Assembly: GCA_021821185.1 (NCBI GenBank)
Contig: JAKACU010000133.1
Span: 1-5,183, forward strand
Origin: Bacillota bacterium
GTDB taxonomy: Bacteria > Bacillota > Bacilli > Alicyclobacillales > SLC66
DNA length: 5,183 nt
Reading direction: 5' to 3'
The notes under the pieces were generated by a model. The model was not told the DNA's origin, searched no databases, and was given only the letters and a program-made list of their open reading frames with translations. A program made the translations under genes and the position numbers. Positions 1,151 to 5,183 of the stretch are shown here, in pieces; the stretch's first letter is position 1; each line of letters begins with the position of its first letter.

Positions 1151-1188
1151 CAGGATTACCTCGCTCAACTGGGCAGACTCTTACAAAA

Positions 1189-1218
1189 ATTCTAGCAAAA
1201 GGCTCCGTTAACCGTCAA
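1189..1218 (-). promoter_or_regulatory. Sigma-A-type promoter of the 704-1150 gene
   Basis: On the minus strand TTGACG (1213-1218) and TAGAAT (1189-1194) are separated by 18 bp. An extended -10 TG lies just upstream of TAGAAT (TGC TAGAAT). Transcription would start near 1182, leaving a leader of about 30 nt before the ATG at 1150. Confidence 0.65.
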
Positions 1219-1275
1219 TCCTTGCGATCTATCTTCCAGCGATTTGGCATTTTTCAAAACGGCAAAAAGTCCGCA

Positions 1276-1289
1276 ATGCCTTGTGGCAT
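1276..1289. repeat. Short inverted repeat between divergent promoters
   Basis: ATGCC and GGCAT are separated by TTGT, a perfect 5-bp dyad. It lies between the minus promoter at 1189-1218 and the plus promoter at 1313-1341. It could be a small operator or chance; no T-run follows on either strand, so it is not a terminator. Confidence 0.25.
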
Positions 1290-1312
1290 AAGGAAAGTTA
1301 GCATAAAAAAGG

Positions 1313-1341
1313 GGGACAAACTGGCAGTTTTATGGTAAAAT
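1313..1341 (+). promoter_or_regulatory. Promoter of the 42-residue peptide gene
   Basis: TAAAAT (1336-1341) is a good -10 and is preceded by TGG, an extended -10 signature. GGGACA (1313-1318) is a weak -35 at 17-bp spacing. Transcription would start near 1348, just before GGAAG, giving a leader of about 60 nt with substantial secondary structure. Confidence 0.55.
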
Positions 1342-1370
1342 AAGAGACAGGAAGGGTGTTGTACTTCCGC

Positions 1371-1401
1371 CTTTCCTCCGACGCCGGAAACGGGGAGGAG
1401 G
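1371..1401 (+). promoter_or_regulatory. Leader hairpin that can sequester the Shine-Dalgarno sequence
   Basis: In the peptide mRNA, positions 1372-1379 (TTTCCTCC) can pair with 1394-1401 (GGAGGAGG): six Watson-Crick pairs and two G-U pairs around a 14-nt loop. The right arm contains GGAGG of the near-perfect ribosome binding site GGAGGTGA (1397-1404). A second small hairpin, GGAAG 1350-1354 with CTTCC 1364-1368, sits at the predicted 5' end. Leaders that mask the SD until processed or refolded are typical of type I toxin mRNAs. The pairing is seen directly; the regulatory role is inference. Confidence 0.5.
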
Positions 1402-1409
1402 TGAGGGAC

Positions 1410-1538
1410 ATGATACCGTTGTTGCTTGCTTTGTGCAGCGTGGCGAAAGCCTATCTGGAGTATGCGGCCGCGAAAGCTAAAACGAGGACAAATGAAAACG
1501 GGGCCTCCCACAAGAGTAAACCCCGTCATCATCGGTAA
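1410..1538 (+). CDS. 42-residue hydrophobic/cationic peptide, candidate type I toxin
   Basis: The ATG at 1410 lies 5 nt after GGAGGTGA (1397-1404), nearly the full anti-Shine-Dalgarno complement, so I choose it over the in-frame upstream ATG at 1356, which lies upstream of the SD. The peptide starts MIPLLLALCSVAKAYLEYAA, a single membrane-length or amphipathic helix over residues 2-20. It continues with a polar, strongly basic tail (KAKTRT, then HKSKPRHHR). This layout matches small membrane-active toxins of Gram-positive type I systems (TxpA/BsrG/Fst-like), although I recognise no specific family. Its context supports the reading: a structured leader, its own promoter and terminator, and an opposing antisense unit over its 3' end. 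It could instead be an ordinary small membrane peptide, or the locus could be a regulatory RNA. Confidence 0.6.
   Translation: MIPLLLALCSVAKAYLEYAAAKAKTRTNENGASHKSKPRHHR
1494..1526 (-). terminator. Intrinsic terminator of the candidate antisense RNA
   Basis: On the minus strand ACGGGG and CCCCGT form a 6-bp stem (plus positions 1521-1526 and 1498-1503), closed by a possible G-U pair, with a 17-nt loop. TTT then C and further T residues follow. On the plus strand the same dyad is followed by CATC, so it has terminator polarity only for minus-strand transcripts. It lies inside the peptide coding region. The loop is large and the U-tail is interrupted, so strength is uncertain. Confidence 0.45.
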
Positions 1539-1589
1539 TCGCGTCCTGGCGGAAGAGCTGGTCTCCAGCCTGACCCTTCCGCTTTCTGT
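1495..1589 (-). ncRNA. Candidate antisense RNA (type I antitoxin) overlapping the peptide mRNA 3' end
   Basis: A promoter-like element at 1596-1624 reads leftward with a predicted start near 1589, and a minus-polarity terminator ends near 1495. The product would be about 95 nt with no meaningful ORF. It would be fully complementary to the last 14 codons of the peptide and to the terminator hairpin of its mRNA. Convergent 3' overlap of this kind is how RatA opposes txpA and SR4 opposes bsrG in Bacillus subtilis; no sequence similarity to those RNAs is claimed. The assignment depends on weak promoter and terminator signals. Confidence 0.4.
1549..1587 (+). terminator. Terminator of the peptide mRNA
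   Basis: GCGGAAG (1549-1555) pairs perfectly with CTTCCGC (1576-1582). An inner stem GCTGG (1557-1561) with CCAGC (1565-1569) closes on a TCT loop, leaving a bulge on the 3' side. TTTCTGTAGTTTT follows. It starts 10 bp after the peptide stop. The outer stem is perfect, but the U-tail is short and interrupted. Confidence 0.6.
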
Positions 1590-1595
1590 AGTTTT

Positions 1596-1624
1596 AGCAT
1601 AGCACCGACAACATAAACCTGCAA
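1596..1624 (-). promoter_or_regulatory. Candidate antisense promoter
   Basis: On the minus strand TTGCAG (1619-1624) and TATGCT (1596-1601) are separated by 17 bp, with an extended -10 TGC directly before TATGCT. Each hexamer matches consensus at about four positions. It points into the 3' end of the peptide gene and has no coding gene of its own downstream, which is why it is read as an antisense promoter. Confidence 0.45.
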
Positions 1625-1638
1625 GAGACGCGTGCAGG
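1618..1638. repeat. Perfect 6-bp inverted repeat overlapping the antisense -35
   Basis: CCTGCA (1618-1623) and TGCAGG (1633-1638) flank a 9-bp spacer. The left arm coincides with the -35 hexamer of the candidate antisense promoter. It could be an operator for that promoter or a hairpin in the leader of the downstream operon. No T-run follows. Confidence 0.3.
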
Positions 1639-1693
1639 CAAGTTATGCAAGAAATTGCGCACCGAACACGAAATGCACAGGAGGCGTTTTTCT

Positions 1694-1888
1694 ATGCTGA
1701 CCAAACGCCTTATCTTGGCGATTTTTTGTGGTACGGCAGGGGCACTTGTGATTGGCCTTATCACCGGGCAATGGATCAAAGGTTTTTTGTTTTGCTATGC
1801 ACTCGCATTGTTGGGCGTCTATGTGTATCAACGTCGCACGCAGAAAAAGGGGGGAGGACAAGATGGAGGATCAACGCTTTCGTCGTGA
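1694..1888 (+). CDS. Small two-helix membrane protein, unknown function
   Basis: This encodes 64 residues from ATG 1694, chosen because AGGAGG (1679-1684) lies 9 nt upstream. An in-frame ATG at 1655 has no such site. Residues about 5-24 (RLILAIFCGTAGALVIGLI) and 28-46 (IKGFLFCYALALLGVYVY) are probable membrane helices separated by TGQW. A basic stretch QRRTQKK and a glycine/serine-rich tail follow. The last 26 bp overlap the next gene, and the next gene's ribosome binding site encodes the KKGGG part of the tail, so the two are almost certainly cotranscribed. I recognise no family and found no convincing promoter directly upstream; transcription may come through the terminator at 1549-1587. 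Confidence 0.7.
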   Translation: MLTKRLILAIFCGTAGALVIGLITGQWIKGFLFCYALALLGVYVYQRRTQKKGGGQDGGSTLSS

Positions 1889-2099
1889 AACGCTTCGGGC
1901 ACGAAGGTGGATCGACCTCATTCTCATCGTGGCGTTCCTTTTGAGTCTGATGGTTTCCTTGTTGTTGCACTGGCATAACAGTGGGCTCTCTGTGACGGTA
2001 GCGATGCTGATGCTTTTGACGAGTGTCATTAATCTATGGACCCTGCACAAGGACAAAAATCCGTCTTTACGTACACTGACACAAGAAGCTAAAGAGTGA
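1863..2099 (+). CDS. Small two-helix membrane protein, unknown function
   Basis: This encodes 78 residues from ATG 1863, chosen for GGGAGG (1852-1857) 5 nt upstream. The frame is open further upstream, but that extension lies wholly within the preceding gene. The N-terminus is charged (MEDQRFRRETLRARR). Two probable helices follow: about 16-36 (WIDLILIVAFLLSLMVSLLL) and 42-62 (LSVTVAMLMLLTSVINLWTL). A charged tail contains HKDKN and ends QEAKE. The basic N-terminus suggests both ends face the cytosol. It overlaps the previous gene by 26 bp and is followed after 16 bp by the GRAM-like gene, so translation of the three is probably coupled. No family is recognised. Confidence 0.75.
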   Translation: MEDQRFRRETLRARRWIDLILIVAFLLSLMVSLLLHWHNSGLSVTVAMLMLLTSVINLWTLHKDKNPSLRTLTQEAKE

Positions 2100-2115
2100 G
2101 TGAGGTAAGAAAAAT

Positions 2116-2553
2116 ATGTTAATAGCCACTTTGCTGGTATCAATTATTGTATTTGTCTTACTATTCACGTTGCTAATACTAATATTCTCTAATCTTCTTG
2201 GACGAAAAAGCACTGAGTTTTTAGTGAAGGGTGAGAATGTTATCAAGGTAGGACGAGCTAATATTTGGAAAGGTATTGAAGCGGTTGGCGGTATGTTGTA
2301 TTTAACAGACAAAGGCAGACTCGTTCATGTTCCTCATAGTGTAAACATCCAAAGAAGCATTGTGGCGGTACAGGTGCCGAATATTATTGATGTGGAAACA
2401 AGGTGGACAAGATTTTTGGGGATTCCAATTGCGAAGAACGGTTTATTCGTAACGCAATCGCAAGGACAGGATTTCAAATACGTCGTATGGGGTACAAAAT
2501 CATGGCGGGAGTCCATCAATTCGTTCCGTGGAAGTTATGAAAAAAGGCAATAA
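2116..2553 (+). CDS. Membrane-anchored GRAM/PH-like domain protein
   Basis: This encodes 145 residues from ATG 2116 with GAGGT (2102-2106) 9 nt upstream. Residues 2-28 form one long membrane anchor (LIATLLVSIIVFVLLFTLLI). Residues about 34-135 look like a GRAM/bacterial PH-like beta barrel. Visible marks are GGMLYLTDKGRLVHVPHSVN (59-78), then IIDVETR, FLGIPIAKNGLFV, and a closing FKYVVWGTKSWRESI with the tryptophan helix. In related small Bacilli proteins the segment GGxLYLTDxRLxFxPH opens the domain. The function is probably membrane-associated binding; the ligand is unknown. The gene is more AT-rich than the two before it, which may mean a separate origin. It is last in the three-gene run. 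Confidence 0.75.
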   Translation: MLIATLLVSIIVFVLLFTLLILIFSNLLGRKSTEFLVKGENVIKVGRANIWKGIEAVGGMLYLTDKGRLVHVPHSVNIQRSIVAVQVPNIIDVETRWTRFLGIPIAKNGLFVTQSQGQDFKYVVWGTKSWRESINSFRGSYEKRQ

Positions 2554-4389: not shown

Positions 4390-4620
4390 TTACTTAGTCA
4401 GTGCCGACAAAGGTCCCATTGCCTTCCTTGCATACTCAAAATGAAGAATTGTATTCGTAGCCTTGTCATACAAGACTTCGAGATTGTACTCACTTCCATT
4501 TCTATACATGCGAGTGTAGTACATTACTGCATTGGTGCCCTGCGGATCTGGGCCTTCAACACCATGTTCGATGGCCTGCTTCAAGGTTTGGACGGGCACG
4601 GCTCGTCCTGGATTATCCAT
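4390..4620 (-). CDS. RHS-type C-terminal toxin tip, orphaned in its own frame
   Basis: This encodes 76 residues from ATG 4620: a start MDNPGRAVPVQTLKQAIEHG, then DPQGTNAVMYYTRMYRNG, SEYNLEVLYDKATNTILHFE and ARKAMGPLSALTK. The even pattern of helix then beta hairpins (YNLEVLYD, NTILHFEYA) resembles compact C-terminal tips of polymorphic toxins of Bacilli, and the immunity gene follows after 15 bp. I cannot assign the catalytic class; candidate polar residues are H19, D25, Y35, R37, E45 and H58. The frame is closed upstream by TAG 15 bp before the ATG and has no convincing Shine-Dalgarno site. It overlaps the end of the RHS frame by 40 bp, so expression could be by coupling, or it could be a silent remnant. 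A normal tip would be fused in frame to the RHS core. Confidence 0.65.
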   Translation of the reverse strand: MDNPGRAVPVQTLKQAIEHGVEGPDPQGTNAVMYYTRMYRNGSEYNLEVLYDKATNTILHFEYARKAMGPLSALTK

Positions 4621-5183
4621 CCATACGTTGGACTGCTAGATCCCGCCTGAATCTCTACGGCGTGCGCCCCAATCTGTGCGGTACTTGTGGTGTCAGTCAC
4701 CGTACCCGTGCCAGACGCATCCTGCCAGTCGGTTGGGAGGCCATTTGTGACGTCCTCAAAGCTGCCGTTTGGCAGCAGGTTTTGTCCGAGCCCCATCGGA
4801 GCACTGCTCGTCGTGGACTGGTCATAGCTGTTCATATTGACGAGTGCCGTTTTGCCCGTGGCGGTTGTGCTATCGCCAGGAATGGTATGGGTGTATGCGA
4901 CGGAATTTTTACCGCCGCCTGGCGTAGTTGCCGAGACCAACTCACCGTTTGCGTTGCTTGCATACTGTTCGATGCCACCGTTTGGCAAGGTTACCGTCAT
5001 CGGGACACCCGTGCCCCCATTGTAAAAGGAACTGTTGTCGTAAGCATACGTGGTGGTGTTGCCGTTTGGATCGGTGACGCCCATGAGCTGGTCATCCTGA
5101 TTCCACTGGTACTTTGTCGTCAGATTTAGCCCGGAAGGATCCACTTGTTGTTCTTGCACTTCACCGCCTGGTGCGATCGTGTA
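4581..5183 (-). pseudogene. YD-repeat/RHS protein fragment broken inside a carbohydrate-binding-like module
   Basis: The frame enters at the right edge and runs for 200 residues to a TGA at 4581. Residues about 20-90 hold YD/RHS repeats: YQWNQDDQLMGVTDPNGN, TTYAYDN, LPNGGIEQYASNANGELVSA. From about residue 135 NLLPNGSFEDVTNGLPTDWQ opens a carbohydrate-binding jelly-roll module of the kind placed between YD repeats in secreted Bacillota RHS proteins; it continues with AHAVEIQAG and YGWIIQD. The module stops after roughly 60 residues, about half the usual length, and the frame ends in the unrelated EPCPSKP. No RHS core or DPxG motif follows; the toxin tip starts at once in another frame. I therefore call a broken gene with an internal deletion. 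The intact parent would deliver a C-terminal toxin to neighbouring cells. Confidence 0.75.

Follow-up and report, generated by a model that had tools for sequence, protein, structure and literature searches.

Type I toxins are hard to detect through protein similarity. The Gram-positive type I pairs known at the time are described in PMC4147584 as all overlapping at their 3' ends. In txpA/RatA of B. subtilis, as outlined in PMC6562991, toxin mRNA and antisense RNA overlap in this way and the SD is near-perfect, and bsrG/SR4 and bsrE/SR5 of the same species combine a cis-antisense RNA of about 100 nt, convergent with the mRNA and overlapping its 3' end, with an SD closed by pairing and a small hydrophobic peptide. 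The par locus of pAD1 (fst/RNA II) is reported to have convergent RNAs, a 5' stem-loop that sequesters the SD and direct repeats that give two regions of complementarity (PMC7472228), and the toxin mRNAs of aapA/IsoA (Helicobacter pylori) and hok/Sok are presented as closed over a long distance from 5' to 3' end (PMC6733600). The locus described here appears to match the B. subtilis type I layout, including the 3' overlap and the near-perfect SD, and to add a mirrored leader and terminator; unlike bsrG/SR4, its leader and terminator are mirror copies that could swap partners. With par pAD1 it shares the repeats and would share the convergent RNAs and a 5' stem-loop predicted to sequester the SD, but Fst has one bidirectional terminator whereas the new unit has two separate hairpins. 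Its predicted 5'-3' closure recalls aapA and hok; in aapA, however, the 3' element covers the SD itself, whereas in the new units a separate anti-SD lies upstream of the SD and closure would run via the terminator arms; aapA and hok mRNAs also need 3' trimming for translation, for which the new units give no evidence. We estimate at roughly 85% the probability that the locus belongs to a family of chromosomal type I toxin-antitoxin (TA) modules that appears to be new and in which toxicity and the antisense RNA are predicted. It would be a new family within a known kind, and its predicted type I assignment rests on comparative anatomy.

The window, by which we mean the whole stretch of 5,183 nucleotides that was analysed, had been proposed in an earlier note to carry such a locus with an extended -10 promoter, a structured leader and a near-perfect SD, and all of these are present as the note describes them. 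The promoter of the predicted toxin mRNA has the extended -10 element TGgTAAAAT (1333-1341, plus strand) and a poor -35, and the 5' leader (1350-1409) holds GGAAGGG at 1350-1356, the segment CTTCCGCC at 1364-1371 and the CU-rich anti-SD CCTTTCCTCC at 1370-1379, which is the predicted pairing partner of the SD aggaggtg (1396-1403, within AGGAGGTGAGG at 1396-1406). The proposed 42-residue reading frame and sense terminator are also found, the former being a predicted toxin ORF with an ATG start (MIPLLLALCSVAKAYLEYAAAKAKTRTNENGASHKSKPRHHR, 1410-1538) and the latter a stem-loop at 1549-1582 with one mismatched pair, or 1549-1595 with its T-rich tail. The opposing promoter and terminator likewise exist on the minus strand: the promoter (1624-1596) consists of a -35 TTGCAG (1624-1619), a spacer of 17 bp and TGc plus TATGCT (1604-1596), and the proposed terminator of the antisense RNA is a hairpin inside the 3' end of the ORF (1498-1526), accompanied by TTTTCATTT on the minus strand and by a T-rich tail that reaches to about 1493. 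From these two signals an antisense RNA of about 95 nt (1493-1589, minus strand) is predicted, within a few bases of the span 1495-1589 given by the note, and it would extend over the sense terminator into the 3' end of the ORF. The note had called each element modest alone, and this is what the counts say: consensus scans of the window returned 6 promoter-like sites, where shuffles lead one to expect 8.1 +/- 2.3, and 5 terminator-like sites, where they lead one to expect 4.9 +/- 2.3, the score of the antisense promoter was equalled in 6 of 100 shuffles and that of the in-ORF hairpin in 7 of 100, and Rfam gave no match on the window at gathering score. Since the consensus scans show no excess of signals and Rfam no match, the window alone leaves the type I case unsettled, and it is conservation at related loci, not the window by itself, that raises the signals above chance.

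A protein search with the single peptide yielded one relative (P0001), whose predicted first 18 residues are identical to those of a longer reading of the window from a GTG, and thus the DNA of the leader is conserved. Genome contigs, when scanned, gave a locus (L001) in a Bacillota MAG whose promoter, leader, SD, ORF, terminator and convergent promoter align with those of the window, and a blastn match between window and L001 is confined to the TA-like unit. Profile searches reached 14 database proteins at E <= 4.5e-14, seven of them letter-identical to query rows and seven not, and these relatives include 'hypothetical proteins' of Alicyclobacillus sacchari, tolerans, vulcanalis and hesperidum; from the peptides common to both sets we infer that the order of the genome with L001 is that of Alicyclobacillus. 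Two proteins of 56 aa (P0015, P0016) with a GVLKAYLEYLA.KKKGKG core and a basic tail appeared at E ~0.12 and were left uncounted as possible distant relatives. A profile of 13 rows gave 10 matches (1 truncated) in 7 of 59 genomes of this order, and in a class-wide sample it matched 7 of 398 genomes: five within the order, all real, and two outside it (G690 and G633) with weak matches in long frames (L019, L020). In a phylum-wide sample a 3-row profile matched 4 of 398 genomes, and G001 alone was real. Candidates without flanking signals were rejected, namely L004, L005 and L006 from the phylum-wide sample and L013 from the order search. The plasmid and phage collections held no match to the DNA of window 1180-2120 or to the P0001 protein, and the IMG/VR viral contigs neither an encoded relative nor a match to the leader pattern, so that a phage origin is unsupported.

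Ten loci could be aligned as DNA (group A: the window, L003, L007, L014, L008, L009, L010, L011, L012 and L015), and conservation among them runs from the sense -10 to the antisense -35. The sense promoter has the extended -10 TGN-TA..T in all ten and no conserved -35, and the leader segment at 1364-1371 of the window keeps the same letters in 10 of 10. An ATG is available at the same place in every locus, and in four of them (L009, L011, L012, L015) the GTG further upstream stands in another frame, for which reason the 60-aa GTG reading of the window was rejected as the gene start. In the antisense promoter, TTG stands exactly 17 bp from a TATGCT-like hexamer in 10 of 10 loci, with little conservation between the two. 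The note had named as its refuting case related loci that keep the peptide and lose the antisense promoter and terminator; group A shows the opposite, both being kept, and the survival of the whole unit at related loci lends support to the proposed type I arrangement. Pairing is preserved in the in-ORF hairpin (CGGGG..CCCCG), where two of the six pairs have changed on both sides and the other four are invariant, and two-sided changes between loci are visible by eye in the inner stem of the sense terminator. Over the 3' module, two-sided changes were counted at 4 pairs against 1.2 in shuffles (reached by 2 of 500), and 94.7% of cells are paired against at most 57.4% when the structure is slid; covariation is 0.091 against 0.060 +/- 0.009 in shuffles (reached by none of 500), a value that a control slid by +3 also attains (0.094), and shuffles show more further pair types than the real module (5.7 vs 4). 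The in-ORF hairpin overlaps codons, and RNA constraint is therefore inseparable from protein constraint there.

The same layout was recovered by RNA models around other hydrophobic and basic peptides that are barely alignable. A covariance model of the 3' module (R1), searched in the same 59 genomes of the order, gave 17 matches in 14 genomes; nine are the training loci other than the window, and the new ones include four loci with other peptides (group B: L030, L038, L031, L032), two weak but complete loci of group C (L034, L035; E ~0.03) and L029, a 3' module without leader or ORF. A leader model (R2) added most of groups C and D. The resulting set of 28 loci, used for the counts below, comprises 10 A, 4 B, 8 C and 6 D members; dropped before counting were L076 (a near copy of L072), the degenerate L016, L070 and L077, the leader-only L045 and L068, and L029, and outside the set stand those found later (L094, L097, L099, L118, L123, L100, L124, L113, L121). 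A leader model built on the 28 loci (R3, E <= 0.01) gave 41 matches in 22 of 59 genomes with at most six in one genome: 27 training rows, found by construction, L076, five more loci that show the layout by eye (L094, L097, L099, L118 and L123, the -10 of L118 being among the least clear), seven remnants (L016, L070, L077, L113, L121, L045, L068) and one junk match (L122). The start codon is TTG in 11 of 19 loci of groups B-D, L076 included. The locus of type I layout that the earlier note had described stands, and the family is larger than the note supposed, several peptide groups sharing the layout. Matches of the three models at L033, L054, L057-L060, L062-L066, L078-L082, L103 and L122 had no layout by eye and were rejected.

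Class-wide, R3 matched 24 of 398 genomes, 16 within the order and 8 outside it, of which G509, G785, G696 and G761 were inspected and G482, G612, G657 and G751 left out. In G509, L100 has the layout by eye and L124 is less clear; the match in G761 has nothing with TA layout. In G785, L102 (1501-1800) shows by eye a leader, a 51-aa peptide (MEFLTDVLTAAMKAIINQLVALVFKTVRSKK...), an in-ORF hairpin and TGcTATAAT on the opposite strand, and looks like a further type I-like locus. The match in G696, of the same class, is an Fst-family type I toxin gene (L101, 1518-1708; NF033608, E 7.7e-14) overlapping Rfam RefB11 (63.7 bits); that the leader model scores an Fst-family locus is a further likeness to that family, at an E of 9.5e-4 near which unrelated DNA matches too.

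Across the 28 loci the best antisense promoter score averages 9.6, against 0.4 in dinucleotide shuffles (maximum 4.0 in 100 rounds), -3.6 in a control region and -2.4 on the forward strand (with -9 assigned where there was no candidate). Its -10 carries the TG extension in 25 of 28 loci, and in 27 of 28 the hexamer follows the terminator stem at a distance of 11-17 nt. Weak promoters are those of A_L012 and A_L015, whose scores 60 and 68 of 100 shuffles reach, and B_L032 (25 of 100); taken singly, the other group A promoters are reached by 3-12 of 100. The in-ORF hairpin scores 23.2 on average against 15.8 in mononucleotide shuffles, and at no locus do more than 10 of 100 shuffles score as high, a comparison which matters because the finder returns hairpins for random sequence too. 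Its stems differ between groups A, B, C and D, and at some group C loci the best-scoring hairpin is not the obvious homologue. The T-tract behind the hairpin is good in A, set back in B, interrupted in D and mixed in C (2-6 T in 10). Promoter and terminator signals for an antisense gene are present across the set, weakly at a few loci, and the transcript is predicted.

The SD is predicted to be paired in all 28 loci (0.77-1.00) and the paired columns are kept. Occlusion is 0.88 in the own leaders against 0.68 in shuffled ones, which is partly a composition effect of the C-rich leader, and for the window alone 27% of shuffles are as high. The 5' end and leader repeat both arms of the terminator in groups A/B, C and D: in A/B, GGAAGGG..CTTCCGCC in the leader goes with GGCGGAAGGG..CCCTTCCGC in the terminator, in D GGGAGAGGG with GGAAGAGGG..CCCTCTTCC, and in C GGGAGGG with GGAGGG..CCCTCC. 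The 5' end pairs with the 3' arm of the terminator at -15.3 kcal/mol within clades, against -11.1 between clades and about -9.9 when shuffled, and the leader pairs with the 5' arm at -15.3 within and -11.5 between. Clade specificity of the 5'/3' pairing rests on A/B and D, between which the sequences change while the complementarity of leader and terminator stays. Group C leaders show no preference for their own terminator in either half: they pair about equally strongly with A/B 3' arms (-13.0, -13.7) and their own 3' arms (-13.3), and more strongly with D 5' arms (-13.4) than with their own 5' arms (-12.3). In MFE folds the RNA of every group A locus but L009 and L014, eight of the ten, is closed end to end. 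In ensemble folds closure exceeds 0.5 in 15 of 28 loci and stands at 0.50 in one more; D loci lie at 0.05-0.50, and L052, L074, L014 and L073 are essentially open. The full-length RNA of the window closes with probability 1.00, its value of -7.6 kcal/mol stemming from a shortened segment. All 14 of the C and D loci in the set have their stop codon at the terminator loop, so that a ribosome finishing the ORF would enter the terminator.

The earlier note recognised no family in the peptide, and within the libraries scanned it is indeed undescribed: the 13-row alignment of group A gave no significant row in Pfam (best E 0.023), NCBIfam (best E 0.12), PHROGs or PADLOC (no match). The weak PHROG match, to the holin phrog_2877 (E 0.029, 3 of 13 rows), is taken as chance, yet it is notable for a small membrane peptide. 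Pfam and NCBIfam were scanned with groups A-D, PHROGs and PADLOC with group A rows, and for groups B-D (18 rows) the best values, E 0.022 in Pfam and E 0.0036 in NCBIfam, each from a single row, are likewise taken as chance. None of the 13 group A and 18 group B-D rows matched NF033608/PF13955 (Fst/Ldr), and the same libraries detect L101 (NF033608 51.2 bits, cut-off 26; PF13955 31.6 bits, below the cut-off of 36); this also separates the new peptides from Fst. A permissive Rfam scan at 15 of 28 loci found no RF01412 at the unit itself and, at the scanned units, only chance-level GlsR17 (E 0.55, 0.68) and SurA (E 0.3). The peptides therefore differ from those of bsrG/SR4 in matching no such family, and from TxpA they are set apart as unrelated by the family scans alone; by RNA or peptide match the units do not belong to the BsrG/TxpA families, the sole BsrG match being a neighbour in L014. 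Among titles and abstract beginnings of the literature on Alicyclobacillus with type I TA or antisense RNA, no paper on such systems was found.

What emerges from the comparison is a short mRNA from an extended -10, a peptide of about 50 aa that has a single hydrophobic segment and, in most members, a basic tail, and a strong end hairpin. The 29 peptides measure 42-54 aa, and their best hydrophobic 17-mers reach 1.42-2.87 on the Kyte-Doolittle scale alone; tail charge is 0 in L012 and L015. The window peptide (1.55) is inside this range, and it is the only aligned member without 7 residues of the hydrophobic segment. Relatives of the predicted toxin ORF are under purifying selection: pN/pS is 0.13 for L007/L014 and 0.36 for six group D members, synonymous changes dominating in the first codons of both, and C_L050/L083 and L052/L074 show few changes with the same lean toward synonymous ones. 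The pair C_L034/C_L035 is saturated and uninformative.

Degenerate copies (L016, L070, L077, L113, L121) and orphan halves (L029, L045, L068) are found as expected of a dispensable module. L029 (1501-1638) has the in-ORF hairpin, the terminator and the antisense promoter without leader or toxin ORF, its downstream part being very like L010 by eye, and is possibly an orphan antitoxin. In L045 and L068 a leader alone is followed by unrelated sequence with an ORF, which by its look we take to encode an AbrB-type protein. Among 406 pairs of loci, 132 match in the unit, 8 in the upstream flanks and 4 in the downstream flanks, 12 of the 29 flank sets falling short of 1,200 nt on one side or both, and 8 of these having less than 420 on both. 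Fourteen within-genome pairs of units are 70-93% identical over the aligned parts, and such copies are therefore not recent. Members of A and D from three genomes (L010, L011, L053) have upstream flanks 71-76% identical over 407-1194 nt, so that different toxins seem to occupy one chromosomal site, and L007 (A) and L038 (B) have 160 nt of flank in common. Such common flanks of A/D and A/B members would fit toxin replacement or duplication on a fixed frame.

We picture the type I module as follows. The upstream CU-rich anti-SD would keep the SD closed, and the 5' end and leader could exchange partners with both terminator arms at the 3' end, so that the mRNA would be closed from one end to the other. 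The in-ORF hairpin would end the antisense RNA after about 95 nt, and this RNA would pair with the 3' ~95 nt of the mRNA, leading to RNase III decay and/or a further block of translation as in txpA/RatA and bsrG/SR4. Were the antisense RNA to fall, the peptide would insert in the membrane and be toxic. A bolder picture, which we consider rather doubtful, is a superfamily with one RNA scaffold and exchangeable toxins, whose mirrored leader and terminator would serve as terminator, mRNA lock and antitoxin docking site at once; making the terminator would lock the message, and in C and D a ribosome finishing the ORF could unlock it, giving a self-reinforcing switch. Because the leader has both arms in common with the terminator, it is complementary to the antisense RNA too (-13.6 and -14.9 within clades vs -10.6 and -11.4 between), and the complementarity fits mRNA closure and docking of the antisense RNA on the leader alike, so that both may hold. 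That the repeat serves antisense-leader pairing rather than intramolecular closure, as the two direct repeats of par pAD1 are described to do (PMC7472228), is a real possibility short of even odds; the stronger complementarity within clades speaks for it, and the MFE folds that set the 5' end against the 3' arm of the terminator in 8 of 10 group A loci speak for closure.

Other readings concern the peptide and the window copy. A membrane peptide might be real and regulated by antisense RNA without being a toxin, for example a modulator of the stress response or of membrane proteins whose dosage is set by the antisense RNA. The selection pattern would suit any functional peptide and two members are without a net basic tail, but multi-copy, lineage-restricted units with several peptide groups, remnants, predicted occlusion of the RBS and a 3' convergent antisense RNA form the Gram-positive type I pattern as presented in PMC6562991, and one copy adjoins a BsrG-like RNA; we hold this reading to be improbable. 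The same multiplicity, with up to six leader matches in one genome and mostly different flanks, could suggest a non-coding repeat or a miniature transposable element that merely resembles a TA locus. No inverted repeats were seen by eye at the ends of four units, however, within-genome pairs at 70-93% identity are not recent copies and the ORF is conserved at the protein level, which leaves very little room for such an element. As for the window, its copy of the predicted toxin module may be weakened by the shortened hydrophobic core, and it may even be a decayed, non-toxic relic of the family, given the 7 residues that it alone is missing, the mismatched pair in its sense terminator and the degenerate copies known elsewhere. 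Its frame is open, though, with SD, both promoters and both hairpins present, its RNA still folds end to end and its hydrophobicity is within the range of the other members, and we judge a relic fairly unlikely.

For the search for type I toxins, these results mean that conservation is stronger in the RNA architecture than in the peptide: models from one group found peptides sharing almost no sequence, so RNA covariance search is a usable method and adds an apparently undescribed family. Two testable questions are raised, whether the regulatory RNA stays fixed while its toxins are exchanged, and whether the 5'-3' locking of toxin mRNAs described for aapA and hok (PMC6733600) occurs in Gram-positive bacteria as well.

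Several observations concern the neighbourhood of individual members. In L014, directly upstream of the group A member, the minus strand carries at 1209-1464 a BsrG-like RNA (RF01412, E 5.8e-5; 34.9 bits, short of the gathering score of 55), so that two type I-like modules stand side by side; its ORF, MVTWQGLSFAVSFAMLVLAIVSFNKKNRP, has no Pfam or NCBIfam family at cut-off. The member in the JA6.bin5 MAG (L001, 6300-7471; L003, 28-1159) adjoins a long CRISPR array with repeats like CRISPR-DR9, just under the gathering score. In the window, three more small hydrophobic ORFs follow downstream of the locus (1694-1888, 1863-2099 and 2713-2880), with no Pfam or NCBIfam family above cut-off. At the ends of the window, both on the minus strand, lie a partial glycosyltransferase like the macrolide family (1-588; TIGR01426, 113 bits, below the whole-protein cut-off) and the end of an RHS/YD-repeat protein (4581-5183).
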